Assembly (NCBI GenBank): GCA_000802095.1 | Contig: JUEB01000013.1 | Span: 124,001-188,000, forward strand | Direction of reading: 5' to 3' | Length of the DNA: 64,000 bases | From: Peptococcaceae bacterium BICA1-7 | GTDB taxonomy: Bacteria; Bacillota; Desulfotomaculia; Desulfotomaculales; Desulfocucumaceae | In this document: positions 1,185 to 60,956 of the stretch, in pieces | How positions within the stretch are numbered: position 1 is the first letter of the stretch | Layout: every line of letters starts with the position of its first letter | Program-made: the position numbers and the translations under genes | The notes under the pieces: model-generated | The model's database searches: none | What the model was told of the DNA's origin: nothing | Seen by the model: only the letters and a program-made list of their open reading frames with translations

Positions 1185-1217
1185 AAAAGAATACAAAAGT
1201 ATTTTCGCTAAGCTTCC

Positions 1218-1381
1218 GATAGCGCTCCATCCAAATGCGGATGACAGTCCTGTATTTATTAAATACAAGCCCAGCAAAGATTCCCGGCCCGAAATCAATG
1301 CTTCGGCGGCTATTCCTTTCCACGCCCCTAAAACGCCGGCCAGGCTCGGGACATGTACTGATAATAGGCCGCACCTCTATC
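1218..1381 (-). promoter_or_regulatory. Lysine riboswitch (L-box)
   Basis: Read on the minus strand this 164-base stretch begins GATAGAGGTGCG and ends GGAGCGCTATC, which pair as the P1 stem. In between are the other L-box hallmarks in the right order: AGTA shortly after P1, GGAAAGG, CGCCGAAGC, GCTGGGC and ACTGTC. It precedes a terminator hairpin and lysA. Known for the family: lysine binding favours the terminator and shuts off expression. The match was made by eye, without a covariance model, but the conserved blocks are unmistakable. Confidence 0.92.
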
Positions 1382-1413
1382 TAATTTCATATTAGATTGT
1401 ATATGGTATTCAA

Positions 1414-54552: not shown

Positions 54553-54604
54553 ATTTTGCCTTCATCCTCACCTGAGCTGCCTATACTCGAGGCAGCCAGT
54601 ACTC

Positions 54605-54749
54605 TACAGGCAGGTCTCCTGACTCGGGTTCATCGCTTCATTGCCCCTTCCCCCTCATGGAGTGGCGCTGGCAACAGCTTCCCCTTACAGTGGCGGGTCC
54701 GCCCAGGAATCTCACCTGGTTCCCTATTCTCCCTTTTCGGGCACCTGTA
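54605..54749 (-). promoter_or_regulatory. Cobalamin riboswitch
   Basis: Read on the minus strand: TACAGGTGCCC at the 5' end and CCTGCCTGTA at the 3' end pair as P1. Between them GGGAATAGGGAA-like, GGTGAGATTCCTGGGCGGACC, CGCCACTGTAA, GCCAGCGCCACT and the B12 box GAGTCAGGAGACCTGCC occur in the canonical order. It should switch off the downstream operon when cobalamin is abundant. Confidence 0.93.
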
Positions 54750-54862
54750 AAAACATATAAAATTTTACCTGAAATGCATATTAAAGCAATTGCCTTAAGC
54801 TGTCAACCCCAAATTAAGGGGCCCCTTTTCCTGAGTCAAGGAAACGTCCCCCTGACTCTTCC

Positions 54863-55362: not shown

Positions 55363-56562
55363 TTATGCTCCGCTTTTGGCAGCCTGATCCATTTGGCGCT
55401 TTTCTCGCTTCTCCTTCATAATACCCACAACCAGCAGGTAAATTATGAACGAACATACTCCGCAGGCCGCCGTCAGGATTACTGCGCAGCCGATCATATT
55501 GATTGTGTAACCTGTCTGGAATGCCTGCCACCAGTCCGGCCGGTGGGCAACGTTGAGCATATAGTTCTGCATTTGTTCCGGGTACTGTATCATTATCTTG
55601 GCCTTTGTATTGCTAATCCCCTGGGCCTGAAGCACCTGCAGGATACCCTTTTCATATACCTTGACATACCCTGAGGCCACCTGCTTCAGCACCACCGAGG
55701 TGAATGCGAAGAAACAGCATATGGCATAGACCAGGCGGATGGTGATGCCATAAACGTACTTGGTGCAGATAGTGCCGAACTGTGCGCCCACAGCCGCTCC
55801 GCACAGCATGATGCTGGCTGCCAGCAGTTCCACCATCCCCTTGGCTCCGTATGTGAAACCACCGTAAGCCCCTGAGAACATAACCTCGAACAGGTCTGTG
55901 CCCACGGCTATCTTGGTAGGCACGCCAACCAGGTATATCAGGGCGGGAACCCTCAGCAGGCCGCCGCCGATGCCCAGGATACCGGCCACAAAACCCGTGA
56001 ATATACCAAGGAATATAAGTGCCCATACCGAGATTCTCATGCGGGCGGTCTTGCAATAAATAACCGGCCACACGTCAAGATTTTTCTGAATCCACCTGGA
56101 CACCTTGTTGCCGACCAGGTCTTTGACCTCTTTACCTGTAATTTTCTCAACCTTTTTGGCTTGCAGATATTCTTTCAGCATAAAGAAGAACATGCTAAAC
56201 AGCAGTACCATGTAGATGTAGCGCACCACCGGCCCGGCCAGCCCCTTCTTGTTCAGGAACATTAGAGACTGGGCGCCCACCTCGACACCGGCCATAGTAC
56301 CTATAAGCATGGTTAAGGCTATAATCACGCTTACGTGCCCGAATTTCCAGTGCCTGAAGGTGGACACCACGGATTTGCCAGCCACGTGCGCCATATCGGT
56401 GCCGACTGCGTACACCATCGGGAACCCGAAGAGGTTCAGCGCAGGCGTTACCAGCCAGGCCCCCCCCAGACCGAAGTAACCTCCCACTACGCCTACAGTA
56501 AATCCTATCAAAAGCAGCGGCCACCAGGCCATTTCAACGCCACTCATGGGCATGTGCATCAT
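55363..56562 (-). CDS. TSUP-family membrane exporter (TauE/SafE)
   Basis: A 399-residue integral membrane protein with about 9-10 hydrophobic segments. The two halves each carry the family motif: GFTVGVVGGYFGLGGAWLVTPALNLFG and GIFTGFVAGILGIGGGLLRVPALIYLVGVPTKIAVGTDLF. TSUP proteins move sulfur-containing organic or inorganic anions such as sulfite or sulfoacetate. A 55-residue loop (about 115-175) and a long segment near 300-350 are larger than in typical members. It is the last gene of a minus-strand unit with two tiny membrane proteins upstream and a candidate riboregulator before them. Start follows GGAGGTG. Confidence 0.88.
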   Translation of the reverse strand: MMHMPMSGVEMAWWPLLLIGFTVGVVGGYFGLGGAWLVTPALNLFGFPMVYAVGTDMAHVAGKSVVSTFRHWKFGHVSVIIALTMLIGTMAGVEVGAQSLMFLNKKGLAGPVVRYIYMVLLFSMFFFMLKEYLQAKKVEKITGKEVKDLVGNKVSRWIQKNLDVWPVIYCKTARMRISVWALIFLGIFTGFVAGILGIGGGLLRVPALIYLVGVPTKIAVGTDLFEVMFSGAYGGFTYGAKGMVELLAASIMLCGAAVGAQFGTICTKYVYGITIRLVYAICCFFAFTSVVLKQVASGYVKVYEKGILQVLQAQGISNTKAKIMIQYPEQMQNYMLNVAHRPDWWQAFQTGYTINMIGCAVILTAACGVCSFIIYLLVVGIMKEKREKRQMDQAAKSGA

Positions 56563-56723: not shown

Positions 56724-56933
56724 CTATACTGTTTTGTTTTCCTGGGCCGGCTCATCCAGCAAATCATCATATTCCTTTTTGTAATCGCCGAGATGAACGC
56801 CCATAAGCCTTACAACAATGTCTGCCACCAGGGCAAATGCCATGCCCACTGCGGCCATGTATAAAGGGACAAAGGCACCGGCAAGTATAGGATTGCTCTT
56901 ATGTAAATCTAAGAACCATTCGAAGAAACTCAC
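56724..56933 (-). CDS. Small membrane protein upstream of the TSUP exporter (69 aa)
   Basis: A 69-residue protein with one or two hydrophobic segments (GAFVPLYMAAVGMAFALVADIVVRLM) and an acidic tail. AGGGAGG lies 5 bases before the ATG. Family not recognised. Its place just before the TSUP gene suggests a partner or accessory subunit. Confidence 0.7.
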   Translation of the reverse strand: MSFFEWFLDLHKSNPILAGAFVPLYMAAVGMAFALVADIVVRLMGVHLGDYKKEYDDLLDEPAQENKTV

Positions 56934-56979: not shown

Positions 56980-57081
56980 TTATTTGGCCAGGAACTTCAA
57001 GGTGGCCAAGGTGTAAAACCAGTAACCGCAGGATCCGATGCAGGTTACTACCATGAATACTTGTGCCAGGAATTTAAACAT
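56980..57081 (-). CDS. Tiny membrane protein (33 aa) leading the TSUP unit
   Basis: A 33-codon frame starting MFKFLAQVFMVVTCIGSCGY with a single membrane helix and a Lys at the end (LKFLAK). AAAGGGGGTG lies 6 bases before the ATG, a strong RBS, and the next gene begins 46 bases later. It is too short for usual gene calling. The Cys-x4-Cys pair inside the helix is notable. It lies just downstream of the riboregulator copy on this strand. Confidence 0.65.
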   Translation of the reverse strand: MFKFLAQVFMVVTCIGSCGYWFYTLATLKFLAK

Positions 57082-57181: not shown

Positions 57182-57253
57182 AAAAAAACAAGGCCGGAGT
57201 TCCGAGATAAAGTCTTATCCCGGACACCCGGCCTATCGTTGTTCGATTTAGCC
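57182..57253 (-). promoter_or_regulatory. Candidate riboregulator, copy C (upstream of the TSUP unit)
   Basis: Minus-strand GGCTAAATCGAACAACGATA followed by GGCC folds as a hairpin (GGCT/GGCC outer pairs, ATCG/CGAT inner stem, loop AACAA). Its 3' arm AGGCCGG also pairs with CCGGCCT further on to form a terminator followed by TTGTTTTTTT. The two folds exclude each other. Two further copies lie on the plus strand at 57442 and 57514. Confidence 0.6.
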
Positions 57254-57441
57254 TATCCAAATGGATTATTTAATTAACCATATTATACTCTCGGCATATG
57301 GGCGAGTCAATTAAAAACCAAAAACTTGTAATATATATCACATTATATTATTTAAAATTTTTATATTTTCTGTATATTATTTTGCCTATTGACATCAAAG
57401 CAGAGCTGCTATTATATTTAAATCAAAGATAATAATGATTG

Positions 57442-57493
57442 AGCCAAATCGAACAACGATAGGCTGGCAGCATTTAGCGTCGGCCTATTTTTT
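57442..57493 (+). promoter_or_regulatory. Candidate riboregulator, copy A (tandem, first)
   Basis: AGCCAAATCGAACAACGATA followed by GGCT gives the same AACAA-loop hairpin; ATAGGCTGGC then pairs with GTCGGCCTAT to form a terminator followed by TTTTTT. Confidence 0.6.
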
Positions 57494-57513
57494 ATCAGTT
57501 AAAGAGTTTAATT

Positions 57514-57575
57514 CCCGGCTGAATCGAACAACGATAGGCCGGCATGTTGTAATAACACGCCGGCCTATTTGTTTT
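57514..57575 (+). promoter_or_regulatory. Candidate riboregulator, copy B (tandem, second)
   Basis: CCGGCT, then GAATCGAACAACGATA, then GGCCGG: outer pairs differ from copies A and C but still match, while the AATCGAACAACGATA core is identical. ATAGGCCGGC pairs perfectly with GCCGGCCTAT to make a terminator ending TTTGTTTT, 25 bases before the RBS of the crystallin-like gene. Confidence 0.65.
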
Positions 57576-57596
57576 ACCAAGAAAGGAGGAATTATC

Positions 57597-58037
57597 ATGT
57601 CAAGCATCTCTCAAACCGGGGATAACTGCCAGGGTATTGTATTTGAAAACGCTGCCGCAAATTTTTTCAAATCGCTGGTGACTTTTTTCAGGCGCAAACA
57701 CACAGCCAGGTCGCCCAGGATCTATCACGGAGACCACTCCTATAACTCAATGCCCGACACGGCCTTTTATAACTTTGTGCACATGAAACATGTAACCTTT
57801 GTGGAAACGGGGGGCTGCTATGTATATATATTTGAGAAGCCTCACTATCAGGGCAACTATATGATAGCCGGCCCCAAAGAAGTTATGCCCATTGGCCAGT
57901 GCGGATCCATGATTATAAGTCTGAAAAGACTCCCGATCAGCTCCATTCAAAAGCACTGCAAGCCGCCCAAAGGATTTTGGGAAGTATCAGGCGCCACTTA
58001 CCAGTACCATTGCTCAATGGGTTACAAATATGTTTAA
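57597..58037 (+). CDS. Beta/gamma-crystallin-like protein, hypothetical
   Basis: A 146-residue protein. The middle part CYVYIFEKPHYQGNYMIAGPKEVMPIG...SMIISLK has the Greek-key pattern (Y-x-F-E-x-x-x-Y-x-G, with later Ser) of beta/gamma-crystallin domains, which often bind calcium. The N-terminus is not a clear signal peptide, and the rest is not recognised. Start at 57597 is chosen for AAAGGAGGA 6 bases upstream; the frame reaches back to 57435 through the regulatory region. It is preceded by two tandem riboregulator copies. Role unknown. Confidence 0.68.
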   Translation: MSSISQTGDNCQGIVFENAAANFFKSLVTFFRRKHTARSPRIYHGDHSYNSMPDTAFYNFVHMKHVTFVETGGCYVYIFEKPHYQGNYMIAGPKEVMPIGQCGSMIISLKRLPISSIQKHCKPPKGFWEVSGATYQYHCSMGYKYV

Positions 58038-58696: not shown

Positions 58697-58888
58697 CTAG
58701 GGCCTTTTGGAACAGTTCTTCTTAAAGTTCTTTTGTTCATCCTCCAGCTTGATGGTCTTTATTGCCTCGTATATTAAAACAGGCTGGCCGCTTTCAACCC
58801 TTATCTTCATTTCCCCCCAGGCCAGTTCGCGCATAAATTTTATTAGAAGTTTTTCTTTGTTGGTCAAAACGATTAATTCATCTATCAT
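58697..58888 (-). CDS. YezD-family (DUF2292) small protein
   Basis: A 63-residue protein. The core LLIKFMRELAWGEMKIRVESGQPVLIYEAIKTIKL has the pattern of DUF2292/YezD proteins, which are short and often lie beside sulfur-assimilation genes. AGAGAGG lies upstream of the ATG at 58888. Function unknown; the nearby TSUP gene makes a sulfur link plausible. Confidence 0.7.
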   Translation of the reverse strand: MIDELIVLTNKEKLLIKFMRELAWGEMKIRVESGQPVLIYEAIKTIKLEDEQKNFKKNCSKRP

Positions 58889-59073: not shown

Positions 59074-59433
59074 TTATTCCAGGGCTTTTTTAATCATAAC
59101 TTTAAGCTCATTTAGGTGAAAGGGTTTCGTTACATAGGCCTTGGCACCTTTTTTGAGTGCTTCCAGAGCCACTGGCATGCTGCTGTGGCCGGTCATAAAA
59201 ATAACTGCCAGCTCCGGGCGCTTTGCCATAATCTGGTCCAGAGTTTCCAGTCCGCTTATACCGGGCATCTTATAATCCAGCAAAACCATACAAATGTCTG
59301 AGGTCAGCTGATTGATGCCCTCGGCGCCATTTGAGGCCTTTACTACTGAGTAGCCCTCTTCCTTCAGGGTCTTTTCAAGTACCCAGCACATGCCCGGCTC
59401 ATCGTCAATTATAAGTACTTTTAACTGTTTCAT
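59074..59433 (-). CDS. Stand-alone response regulator receiver protein
   Basis: A 119-residue CheY-like receiver domain with no output domain. Seen: acidic pair IIDDEPGM, the phospho-Asp in VLLDYKMPGISG (about residue 53), Thr in FMTGHSS and Lys in YVTKPFHLNEL. RBS GGGAG precedes the ATG. It lies 26 bases after the histidine kinase gene and should be its partner; output must occur through protein contact, perhaps with the nearby sigma-54 activator. Confidence 0.9.
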   Translation of the reverse strand: MKQLKVLIIDDEPGMCWVLEKTLKEEGYSVVKASNGAEGINQLTSDICMVLLDYKMPGISGLETLDQIMAKRPELAVIFMTGHSSMPVALEALKKGAKAYVTKPFHLNELKVMIKKALE

Positions 59434-59459: not shown

Positions 59460-60956
59460 TTAACTAATCGGGAAAAAGACAGTAAAAGTTGTCCCGTGTC
59501 CTGGCTTGCTTTCAACTTTTACAAACCCTTTGTGAATTTCAATTATTTTTTTACTGATGGCCAGCCCCAGCCCGCTACCCCCCGCTTTCACGGAATAATA
59601 GGGCTCAAATATTTGATCCAGCTGTTCCTCGGGTATTCCTATTCCGGTGTCTTTAAAGGCGAGGCCAATCATATCTTCCTTGGGGAGAATATCGACACTT
59701 AGCCGGCCCCCTCCCGGCATTGCCTGCACTGCGTTAATAATTATATTTATAAAGACCTGAGTAAGTTTGTCCCTGTCACCAATTATAGTGAACACCTTTT
59801 CTGGATAATTAACCAATAAATCTACATTGTTCTTTATTAGAACCGGTAGTATGCTGTCAGTTACTGATTGTAAAAAACCATTTACAGCGATGGGCTCCAG
59901 CGACACCCGGTTGGTACTGCTAAAGCTCAACAGGTCCGTAATAAGGGTTTTTTGGCGGCACATCTGAACTTTAATCATATCCAGGCAGTCAGTGAGCTCC
60001 TGGTTTTGGTTAACCCTGGATTCCATCAGTTCGACTGTGGCCTGGACTATGGATACCGGATTGCGTAGTTCGTGAGCTATGTCAGCCACTATCCTGCCCA
60101 GAGAGGCCAGTCTTTCAGAACTTCTCAGCTGCTCAGTGAGCTTTTCCTTTTCCAGTAAGCCTGCAGCCATATTATTGACTGCCTTGCTTATTTGCCCAAG
60201 CTCACCGGGCAAATAAGGAATTCTGTGGTTTAAATTTTTTTCCAGTAAAAAAAGTCCCTCTTTTATTATGTTGACTCTGGAAGCCATTTGGTTTGTGGCT
60301 AAAATGGTGATAATCACCCCAAACAAGAATATCAACTGGGTCACAGCCAGAATTGTTTGCCTGGCGCTGGCCTCTCTTGCAAAAACCGGGTGCATTCTTT
60401 TTTCCGCCCAGATAATAGCCCTCAGCTCATTATCCACATATAGCGGCTCCAGATATTCAAGGAATTGATCGTCCCATGTCTTTCCCAGAGTGGTAATGGC
60501 CTTGCCGCTTGAAGCAACTGCGTTGATTCCTTCCCTGGTTTCCTCTAAAATACGATCCTTCCTGAGTATCTGACCTTCTCCGCCGGGTGGGCGGTAATCG
60601 TGAAGATAGCCCTCAATAAAAATGCTGCTGGATTTTATATTATAAATACAAAGCCTGATTTGATCGTTTCTACCGGCCAGCAGAGGGCCGGCGGCAGTTC
60701 TGAAGGAGTCCTCCAACAGTATTTCAAAATTATTTTGTGGTTCCCTGGATTGTTTTAGTGCTATCTGTTCCTGTATTTTTGAGTTCATTTCCTTCACCAC
60801 TCCCATCAGTTCTTTTTCCATATCTCCTATTAGGAAGTCATCGGTTCTGGAAACAAAGAAAAAATTGTAAACCAGCATCATTATTGGTGCTATCAGGACA
60901 ATACATACTGCTGTCAGCATCTGGGTTTTATAGCTCCGCTGGAAAAAGTTGAACAT
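59460..60956 (-). CDS. Membrane sensor histidine kinase
   Basis: A 498-residue sensor kinase: membrane segment near residues 14-33, an extracytoplasmic domain (about 34-205; seems to be a degenerate Cache/PAS-like fold), second membrane segment near 207-228, HAMP (about 229-280), HisKA with IAHELRNPVSIV (phospho-His near 300) and HATPase with FKDTGIGIPEEQLDQIF and GSGLGLAISKKII. RBS GGAGAGGGA precedes the ATG. It pairs with the receiver protein downstream. Signal unknown. Confidence 0.92.
   Translation of the reverse strand: MFNFFQRSYKTQMLTAVCIVLIAPIMMLVYNFFFVSRTDDFLIGDMEKELMGVVKEMNSKIQEQIALKQSREPQNNFEILLEDSFRTAAGPLLAGRNDQIRLCIYNIKSSSIFIEGYLHDYRPPGGEGQILRKDRILEETREGINAVASSGKAITTLGKTWDDQFLEYLEPLYVDNELRAIIWAEKRMHPVFAREASARQTILAVTQLIFLFGVIITILATNQMASRVNIIKEGLFLLEKNLNHRIPYLPGELGQISKAVNNMAAGLLEKEKLTEQLRSSERLASLGRIVADIAHELRNPVSIVQATVELMESRVNQNQELTDCLDMIKVQMCRQKTLITDLLSFSSTNRVSLEPIAVNGFLQSVTDSILPVLIKNNVDLLVNYPEKVFTIIGDRDKLTQVFINIIINAVQAMPGGGRLSVDILPKEDMIGLAFKDTGIGIPEEQLDQIFEPYYSVKAGGSGLGLAISKKIIEIHKGFVKVESKPGHGTTFTVFFPIS

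Follow-up and report, generated by a model that had tools for sequence, protein, structure and literature searches.

An AACAA-loop leader hairpin that shares an arm with intrinsic terminators in sulfate-reducing Clostridia and relatives: a candidate protein-dependent antiterminator co-inherited with a small DUF2292-like protein

The window analysed here is a 64,000 nt stretch of the genome of Peptococcaceae bacterium BICA1-7 (contig JUEB01000013.1, positions 124,001 to 188,000), in which two divergently oriented transcription units are separated by a region containing three copies of a small hairpin (Table 1). On the minus strand, genes for a tiny membrane protein and a TSUP permease are preceded by a 33 aa membrane-peptide frame (MFKFLAQVFMVVTCIGSCGYWFYTLATLKFLAK, 56983-57081, minus strand), located between the minus-strand element and the gene for the tiny membrane protein; this frame probably opens the unit. 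On the plus strand lies a gene for a crystallin-like protein, for which no Pfam or NCBIfam match was found. The open reading frame of this gene can be extended to an upstream ATG (57435-58037, plus strand) and then crosses both tandem hairpins uninterrupted, and the true start is likely to be at 57597, behind a ribosome-binding site. Beside both targets, a row of minus-strand genes encodes a sensor histidine kinase, a receiver-only response regulator and, downstream of these, a small DUF2292-like protein of the family referred to here as F4, which has no element of its own in the window.

Table 1. Features of the hairpin region and neighbouring genes in the window
Feature	Position	Strand	Remarks
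TSUP (TauE/SafE) permease, target	55363..56562	-	PF01925, E 3.7e-42
Tiny membrane protein, 69 aa, target	56724..56933	-	Sub-threshold similarity to NCBIfam DVU0150 family (19.9 bits, cut-off 70)
Intrinsic terminator, minus copy	57182..57233	-	Fold -28.0 kcal/mol; stem-loop 57233-57191, T-run 57190-57182; 5′ arm is the hairpin 3′ arm
Hairpin element, minus copy (26 nt model span)	57228..57253	-	Leader of 33 aa peptide/tiny membrane protein/TSUP unit
Sigma-70-like promoter TTGACT-17-TATAAT	57282..57310	-	11/12 matches; 28 nt upstream of minus copy
Sigma-70-like promoter TTGACA-18-TATATT	57389..57418	+	11/12 matches; 23 nt upstream of first tandem copy
Hairpin element, first tandem copy	57442..57467	+	Core match, model match, folding
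Intrinsic terminator, first tandem copy	57462..57493	+	Fold -13.2 kcal/mol; stem-loop 57462-57489, then T-run
Hairpin element, second tandem copy	57517..57542	+	Core match, model match, folding
Intrinsic terminator, second tandem copy	57537..57575	+	Fold -19.4 kcal/mol; stem-loop 57537-57566, then T-run
Target gene, 146 aa, "crystallin-like" in the initial annotation	57597..58037	+	Behind tandem copies; in other genomes, homologues also follow the element
F4, 63 aa DUF2292-like protein, candidate RNA-binding antiterminator	58697..58888	-	Profile, co-occurrence, partial DUF2292 likeness of family
Receiver-only response regulator, 119 aa, proposed input to F4	59074..59433	-	PF00072, E 3.5e-28
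Sensor histidine kinase, 498 aa, proposed signal input	59460..60956	-	Profile match

The 15-base core AATCGAACAACGATA was found at the three places reported in the initial annotation (57234-57248 on the minus strand, 57447-57461 and 57522-57536 on the plus strand), with the copies distributed over two divergent leaders as a single copy on the minus side versus a tandem pair on the plus side. Allowing 2 mismatches gave no extra matches in the window, and 100 shuffled sequences had a mean of 0.05 matches, with none reaching three. A search of the whole 4.75 Mb genome with the 13-mer ATCGAACAACGAT and at most 1 mismatch returned the three window copies and, on a different contig, one further site with 1 mismatch, compared with two matches for the reversed control pattern; no GGCC arm was present on the downstream side of the additional site in the part examined. 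In this genome, the 26 nt covariance model described below had no matches other than the three window copies, all within a stretch of ~315 bases. The outer pairs said to differ between the copies (GGCT/GGCC, AGCC/GGCT and CCGGCT/GGCCGG) are present in the sequence, and at all three copies folding placed the 3′ arm of the hairpin in the stem of an intrinsic terminator followed by a T-run, as had been proposed. The terminator of the first tandem copy falls short of the -15 kcal/mol threshold of the strict test used below, and a simple terminator scan, which considered loops of 3-8 nt only, found none in this region. Six promoter-like sites were detected in the region, versus 2.2 in shuffled sequences.

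The element is found well beyond the host genome. A 17-base pattern with 1 mismatch allowed was detected in 33 of 200 genomes, including that of the host, at 1-6 copies each and often within ~10 kb, and the reversed control pattern gave no matches throughout. The covariance model, which spans 26 nt and was built from 49 distinct cores, matched 34 of the 113 genomes of the host's order at E ≤0.01; these carriers are sulfate reducers of the Clostridia together with some relatives. Of 398 genomes sampled across the phylum, six had model matches, four from the host's order (host included) and two from outside it, with a clear element at the edge of a contig in G186 and a weak one in G277. The family is thus largely restricted to one order and not spread over Firmicutes at large, where a search had been suggested initially. 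Named carriers include Desulfofundulus australicus, Desulfovirgula thermocuniculi, Desulfoscipio geothermicus, Desulfotruncus arcticus and Desulforamulus aquiferis, with further carriers among metagenome-assembled genomes (MAGs) labelled Desulforudis, Ammonifex and Pelotomaculum. The dsrA gene was detected in 27/34 carriers and in none of the six Pelotomaculum-like genomes nor in G007, and it is also present in 49 genomes that lack the element. The element was also seen in loci L128 and L130 (JAIMBK010000019.1) of a MAG titled Armatimonadetes, a title that may be wrong.

The hairpin has the consensus GGCYGA-AUCG-AACAA-CGAU-A-GGCC, in which a GA/A internal loop separates an outer from an inner stem, each of four pairs, and the inner stem is capped by a loop of five bases. 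Information content was 1.57 bits per position within the 26 nt, versus 0.15 and 0.12 in the two flanks (97 copies); the loop and the internal bulge are strictly conserved, and the flanks are unrelated between copies. In the alignment of the 49 cores 94.4% of the cells pair and 6/8 pairs changed on both sides, with none of 500 shuffles reaching any of five measures, and an alignment of all copies, which itself leans to structure, had double changes in 7/8 pairs; both counts overstate the covariation of the inner stem, since the core-picking filter retained two-mismatch copies only when this stem was paired. Sliding the partners by +1 on the fitted all-copy alignment also gave 6 pairs with double changes, yet with only 30.1% of cells paired. 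As the filter had selected for inner-stem pairing, a recount was made in which the inner three pairs were left free. With only the bases outside these pairs fixed, 88 matches were obtained in the collected loci, of which 86 had a perfectly complementary inner stem and 2 an unpaired one, and 12 of the 86 stems were changed (TGG/CCA in nine, TTG/CAA in two and TCA/TGA in one). The stems thus covary across the family, the inner one also when its pairing is not selected for. Eight two-mismatch 13-mers had been dropped by the core filter, with the outer context present in four of these, and the outermost pair is weak, being non-standard in 19/49 cores. In loci L055, L056, L057 and L059, from genomes with one F4 gene each, two copies per locus have the TGG/CCA inner stem and the rest TCG/CGA; wherever a gene could be assigned to the TGG/CCA copies, it was a kinase or TSUP-side gene.

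Overlap with a terminator was assessed in a set of 103 copies (100 of the 102 model matches and the three from the window), 102 of which had enough sequence for the test. A strict test was used, requiring a folding energy of -15 or lower, pairing of five of the first six arm bases and a T-run, and a terminator starting with the 3′ arm of the hairpin was thus found in 90/102 copies, versus 50/510 controls in which the sequence behind the arm had been shuffled; the other 12/102 copies failed. A loose test was passed by 97/103 copies and also by 177/510 shuffles, and was dropped as too permissive. Median folding energies were -7.5 kcal/mol for the hairpin and -23.9 kcal/mol for the terminator, and since the latter is far more stable, the hairpin is likely to need help to win, with OFF as the predicted default state. 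Promoter-like sequences with at least 10/12 matches were present upstream of 47/102 copies (shuffled mean 3.2, maximum 7), always 12-58 nt before the hairpin, which places the hairpin close to the 5′ end of the transcript in these copies. The stem-loop seen in most copies would also fit a plain terminator with a conserved stem start and no switch, be it a repeat (mobile or palindromic) or a signal at the ends of operons, as would the recurrence of several copies within one neighbourhood and the same-strand ORF located upstream of 75/103 copies according to a simple ORF caller. Such a terminator would not need compensatory changes in the hairpin, however, and the promoters just upstream of many copies, the unrelated flanks, the position of the window copies between divergent genes and the confinement of all copies of the host to one ~315-base stretch make this explanation scarcely credible. 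A mobile repeat in particular was rejected, given the differing flanks and the promoters upstream of many copies.

No known RNA family accounts for the element. In the window, Rfam reported a lysine riboswitch (1212-1387, minus strand) and a cobalamin riboswitch (54592-54763, minus strand) elsewhere and none at the hairpin; a local Rfam search to E 10 gave four weak matches, each far under its gathering score, and a search of 20 homologous loci returned a single tRNA. The initial annotation had named two outcomes that would speak against a new riboregulator, a match to a known family or a mobile repeat scattered without link to gene starts or terminators, and neither was encountered, with the copies lying behind promoters, with terminators and in unrelated flanks. 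The mutually exclusive antiterminator/terminator arrangement proposed there gained support from the compensatory changes, the shared arm, the promoters just upstream and the lack of an Rfam match, and it is well supported that the element acts as a promoter-proximal leader antiterminator competing with a terminator, as judged from sequence and predicted folding.

The first same-strand genes behind the 103 copies, named from profile matches and reading by eye, encode F4 (20 copies), TSUP permeases (11), crystallin-like proteins (8), tiny membrane proteins (7) and histidine kinases (6), followed by universal stress proteins, cluster C2 (mixed, with CBS-domain proteins) and cluster C5 (with DASS-type transporters) with four each, and others; the simple ORF caller found no same-strand gene within 500 nt for 21/103 copies, which were kept in the denominators. 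The link to TSUP and crystallin-like genes suggested by the window was thus recovered, within a wider range of targets. In the Pelotomaculum-like family, a single element precedes a formate/nitrite transporter operon. The TSUP and DASS families were treated as candidate sulfate transporters of sulfate reducers in a comparative study (PMC5840216), and transport of sulfate or sulfite may be a common theme of the targets. The location in leaders of transporter genes, together with the strictly conserved loop and bulge and the tandem copies, which also occur with some riboswitches, would allow for a very small riboswitch-like switch, in which a metabolite or ion (e.g. sulfite or formate) is the direct ligand of the hairpin and F4 just happens to belong to the same physiology. 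At 24 nt and with a loop of five bases, however, the hairpin would make a small aptamer, there was no good Rfam match even at E 10, the targets are diverse (TSUP, DASS, formate/nitrite channel, universal stress and kinase genes), and the co-inheritance with F4 described below is not expected of a riboswitch, which together make direct metabolite binding highly improbable.

F4 forms the largest gene cluster in the element neighbourhoods (52 members from 36 loci, ~65 aa), and its profile, which was built from element-adjacent genes and so favours the recovery of such genes, matched 35 of the 113 genomes of the order. Both F4 and the element were present in 33 genomes, the element only in 1, F4 only in 2 and neither in 77 (Fisher p 5.5e-25), and 0/20,000 label shuffles within families, which partly handle relatedness, reached 33 (mean 16.0, maximum 25). 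F4 tracks the element in each of the split genera (g1, g9, g11, g14, g27, g34, g37 and g51), save for genomes G075 (g9) and G103 (g51). G075, which is 89% complete and in 320 contigs, has three F4 genes and no detected element, and searches near these genes with the model and by eye found no diverged version; G103 has a weak element (E 0.0027, 6 nt loop) and no F4, and G098 has weak DUF2292-type matches only and no element. In the phylum sample of 398 genomes, 17 genomes outside the order had weaker DUF2292-type matches only (best E 2.4e-13), none of which has the element, and G186 and G277 were not among the F4 matches in the phylum draw of the same size. Co-occurrence could also arise were F4 merely a regulated gene, as it is the first gene behind 20/103 copies.

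F4 and the element are located on one contig in 27/33 genomes, and on different contigs in six Pelotomaculum-like genomes (family f7), and the near-perfect co-occurrence thus extends to elements in trans. In these six genomes no kinase, receiver or TSUP gene was present among the five neighbours on each side of F4, the model search found no element in the sequence stretch around F4, and the kinase profile was absent from the whole genome. F4 adjoins a gene read as murI in this family, and an ion-transporter gene of cluster C5, which also holds DASS members, is located ~1 kb from F4 in 3/6 genomes, so that F4 is not wholly free of transporter company there. The formate/nitrite transporter, which provides a natural control, is present in 18 genomes of this family, of which the 6 with F4 are the same 6 that have the element, and the other 12 have neither; in one of these F4-free genomes, G106, the sequence is cut off after 346 upstream bases. 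Binding of F4 to the hairpin RNA would best explain the co-inheritance, and above all these cases in trans. The binder was initially proposed to be a protein or a ligand, and because the F4 family tracks the element across genomes, a protein is likelier than a small ligand.

Other co-inherited partners were considered and rejected. The sensor kinase profile matched 54 genomes, 24 with and 30 without the element, and was absent from 10 carriers; the kinase clade of the regulon (at least 210 bits) was present in 23 carriers, absent from 11, and in 2 genomes without the element. The formate/nitrite transporter showed no association over the order (7/34 carriers) and is a target in one family only. 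ANTAR proteins were found in 99/113 genomes, with or without the element. The hairpin may still be an antiterminator bound by another protein (an ANTAR protein, for instance, or the regulator with only a receiver domain), with F4 co-regulated and serving another task; ANTAR genes are present in 34/34 carriers, the kinase/receiver pair adjoins many elements, and F4 is itself a frequent target. We consider this unlikely, since ANTAR genes are also present in 65/79 element-free genomes and so do not predict the element, the regulon's kinase clade is missing from 11/34 carriers, and F4 is retained in trans in the Pelotomaculum-like genomes, away from any detected element. The ANTAR target as described in PMC3369931 furthermore consists of two hexanucleotide-loop hairpins, and not of one hairpin with a five-base loop.

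The likeness of F4 to DUF2292 is partial. PF10055 (DUF2292) matched 24/46 F4-type members at E ≤0.1 (best 1.1e-4); the window F4 gave no PF10055 match at E 10 and did not reach the curated cut-off of 22 bits, and a homologue at locus L038 scored 14.3 bits, below this cut-off. The structure model of F4, which is of modest confidence (pLDDT 74.6, pTM 0.49), contains one helix and a beta-hairpin. No RNA-binding relative was found when solved structures were searched by fold (best E 5.0, Foldseek) and by sequence (best E 0.063, PDB). The median net charge of the 52 members is +3.5. Classical DUF2292 members in other Clostridia are encoded directly behind cobalamin riboswitches (L185:617-1644, with two in a row, L150:15947-16483 and L152:6645-7237), so that this kind of protein is again found beside a regulatory leader RNA, though one of a different type from the AACAA hairpin of F4. 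We take the small protein OscA to be a member of DUF2292. The function of OscA is given as unknown, and its gene adjoins those of a sulfate ABC transporter (PMC2996968). No description of the element, or of DUF2292 as a regulator, was found in the literature searched, which mostly excluded subscription papers and preprints, and in the parts of that literature covered DUF2292 was hardly named, with one appearance in expression lists.

We propose that the element is a protein-dependent leader antiterminator, with F4 as its most likely factor and the kinase/receiver pair possibly setting F4 activity, a reading to which we assign a probability of roughly 0.66. It builds on the covarying hairpin, the arm shared with the terminator, the promoter-proximal position and the co-occurrence with F4, all of which were demonstrated computationally. 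By default, the stronger downstream stem-loop would form and RNA polymerase would stop. A trans-acting factor, most likely the DUF2292-like F4, would hold the AACAA-loop hairpin, thus occupying the 3′ arm, blocking the terminator and allowing the operon to be read. Binding of the candidate is accordingly predicted to antiterminate rather than to terminate. The activity of F4 may be set by the neighbouring histidine kinase and receiver-only regulator in many genomes, including that of the window, and such control would not be general, with 11/34 element genomes lacking that kinase clade.

The element represents an apparently undescribed class of regulatory RNA, with ~100 copies, in bacteria that drive the sulfur cycle, and the proposed role offers a testable function for a small protein family that is scarcely named in the literature searched. 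If F4 binds the hairpin, a protein of ~65 residues and an RNA of 24 nt would make up a remarkably small antitermination pair, and the arrangement with a bare receiver, if true, would show how a signal can be relayed to RNA through a split regulator. A broader and more speculative possibility, which we hold only tentatively, is that DUF2292-like proteins constitute a novel class of antiterminators, minimal in size and RNA-binding. In these sulfate reducers, a kinase, a bare receiver and a separate ~65 aa RNA-binding protein would then form a two-component system with a split output, addressing RNA and not DNA and switching sulfate/sulfite transport operons at leader terminators, and the wider DUF2292 family would likewise act on leader RNAs.

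Protein-dependent antiterminators are defined by a hairpin and a terminator that exclude each other in a 5′ leader, which is the arrangement found here by sequence and folding. Termination in such systems is stopped when a trans factor binds, a role for which F4 is the candidate by its co-occurrence with the element. In the BglG/SacY/LicT systems, a RAT hairpin of ~30 nt is stabilised by a small RNA-binding domain and prevents formation of an overlapping terminator, much like the switch proposed here; the RAT sequence, its internal loops and the PRD-regulated proteins set these systems apart from the element by description. The NusG paralogue LoaP also uses a leader RNA hairpin, and acts processively on the elongation complex, whereas the hairpin described here would directly exclude the terminator. 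A parallel in layout exists with the ANTAR systems (EutV, NasR and AmiR), where a leader hairpin with conserved loop bases likewise overlaps and competes with an intrinsic terminator (PMC3369931). According to the same source, the ANTAR target RNA has two hairpins with hexanucleotide loops, in which loop positions 1 and 4 are conserved, in contrast to the single AACAA hairpin here, and in the conservation profile of 97 copies the 30 nt preceding the element were not conserved. EutV contains a receiver domain and binds RNA after phosphorylation (PMC3369931), with the RNA-binding domain fused to the receiver in the ANTAR systems described there, whereas the arrangement proposed here consists of a bare receiver and a separate candidate binder of ~65 aa. 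As the RNA falls outside the ANTAR definition while the mechanism resembles those of the ANTAR and RAT systems, we regard the element as a new class of RNA, whose predicted regulator is also new and whose mechanism is of a known kind.
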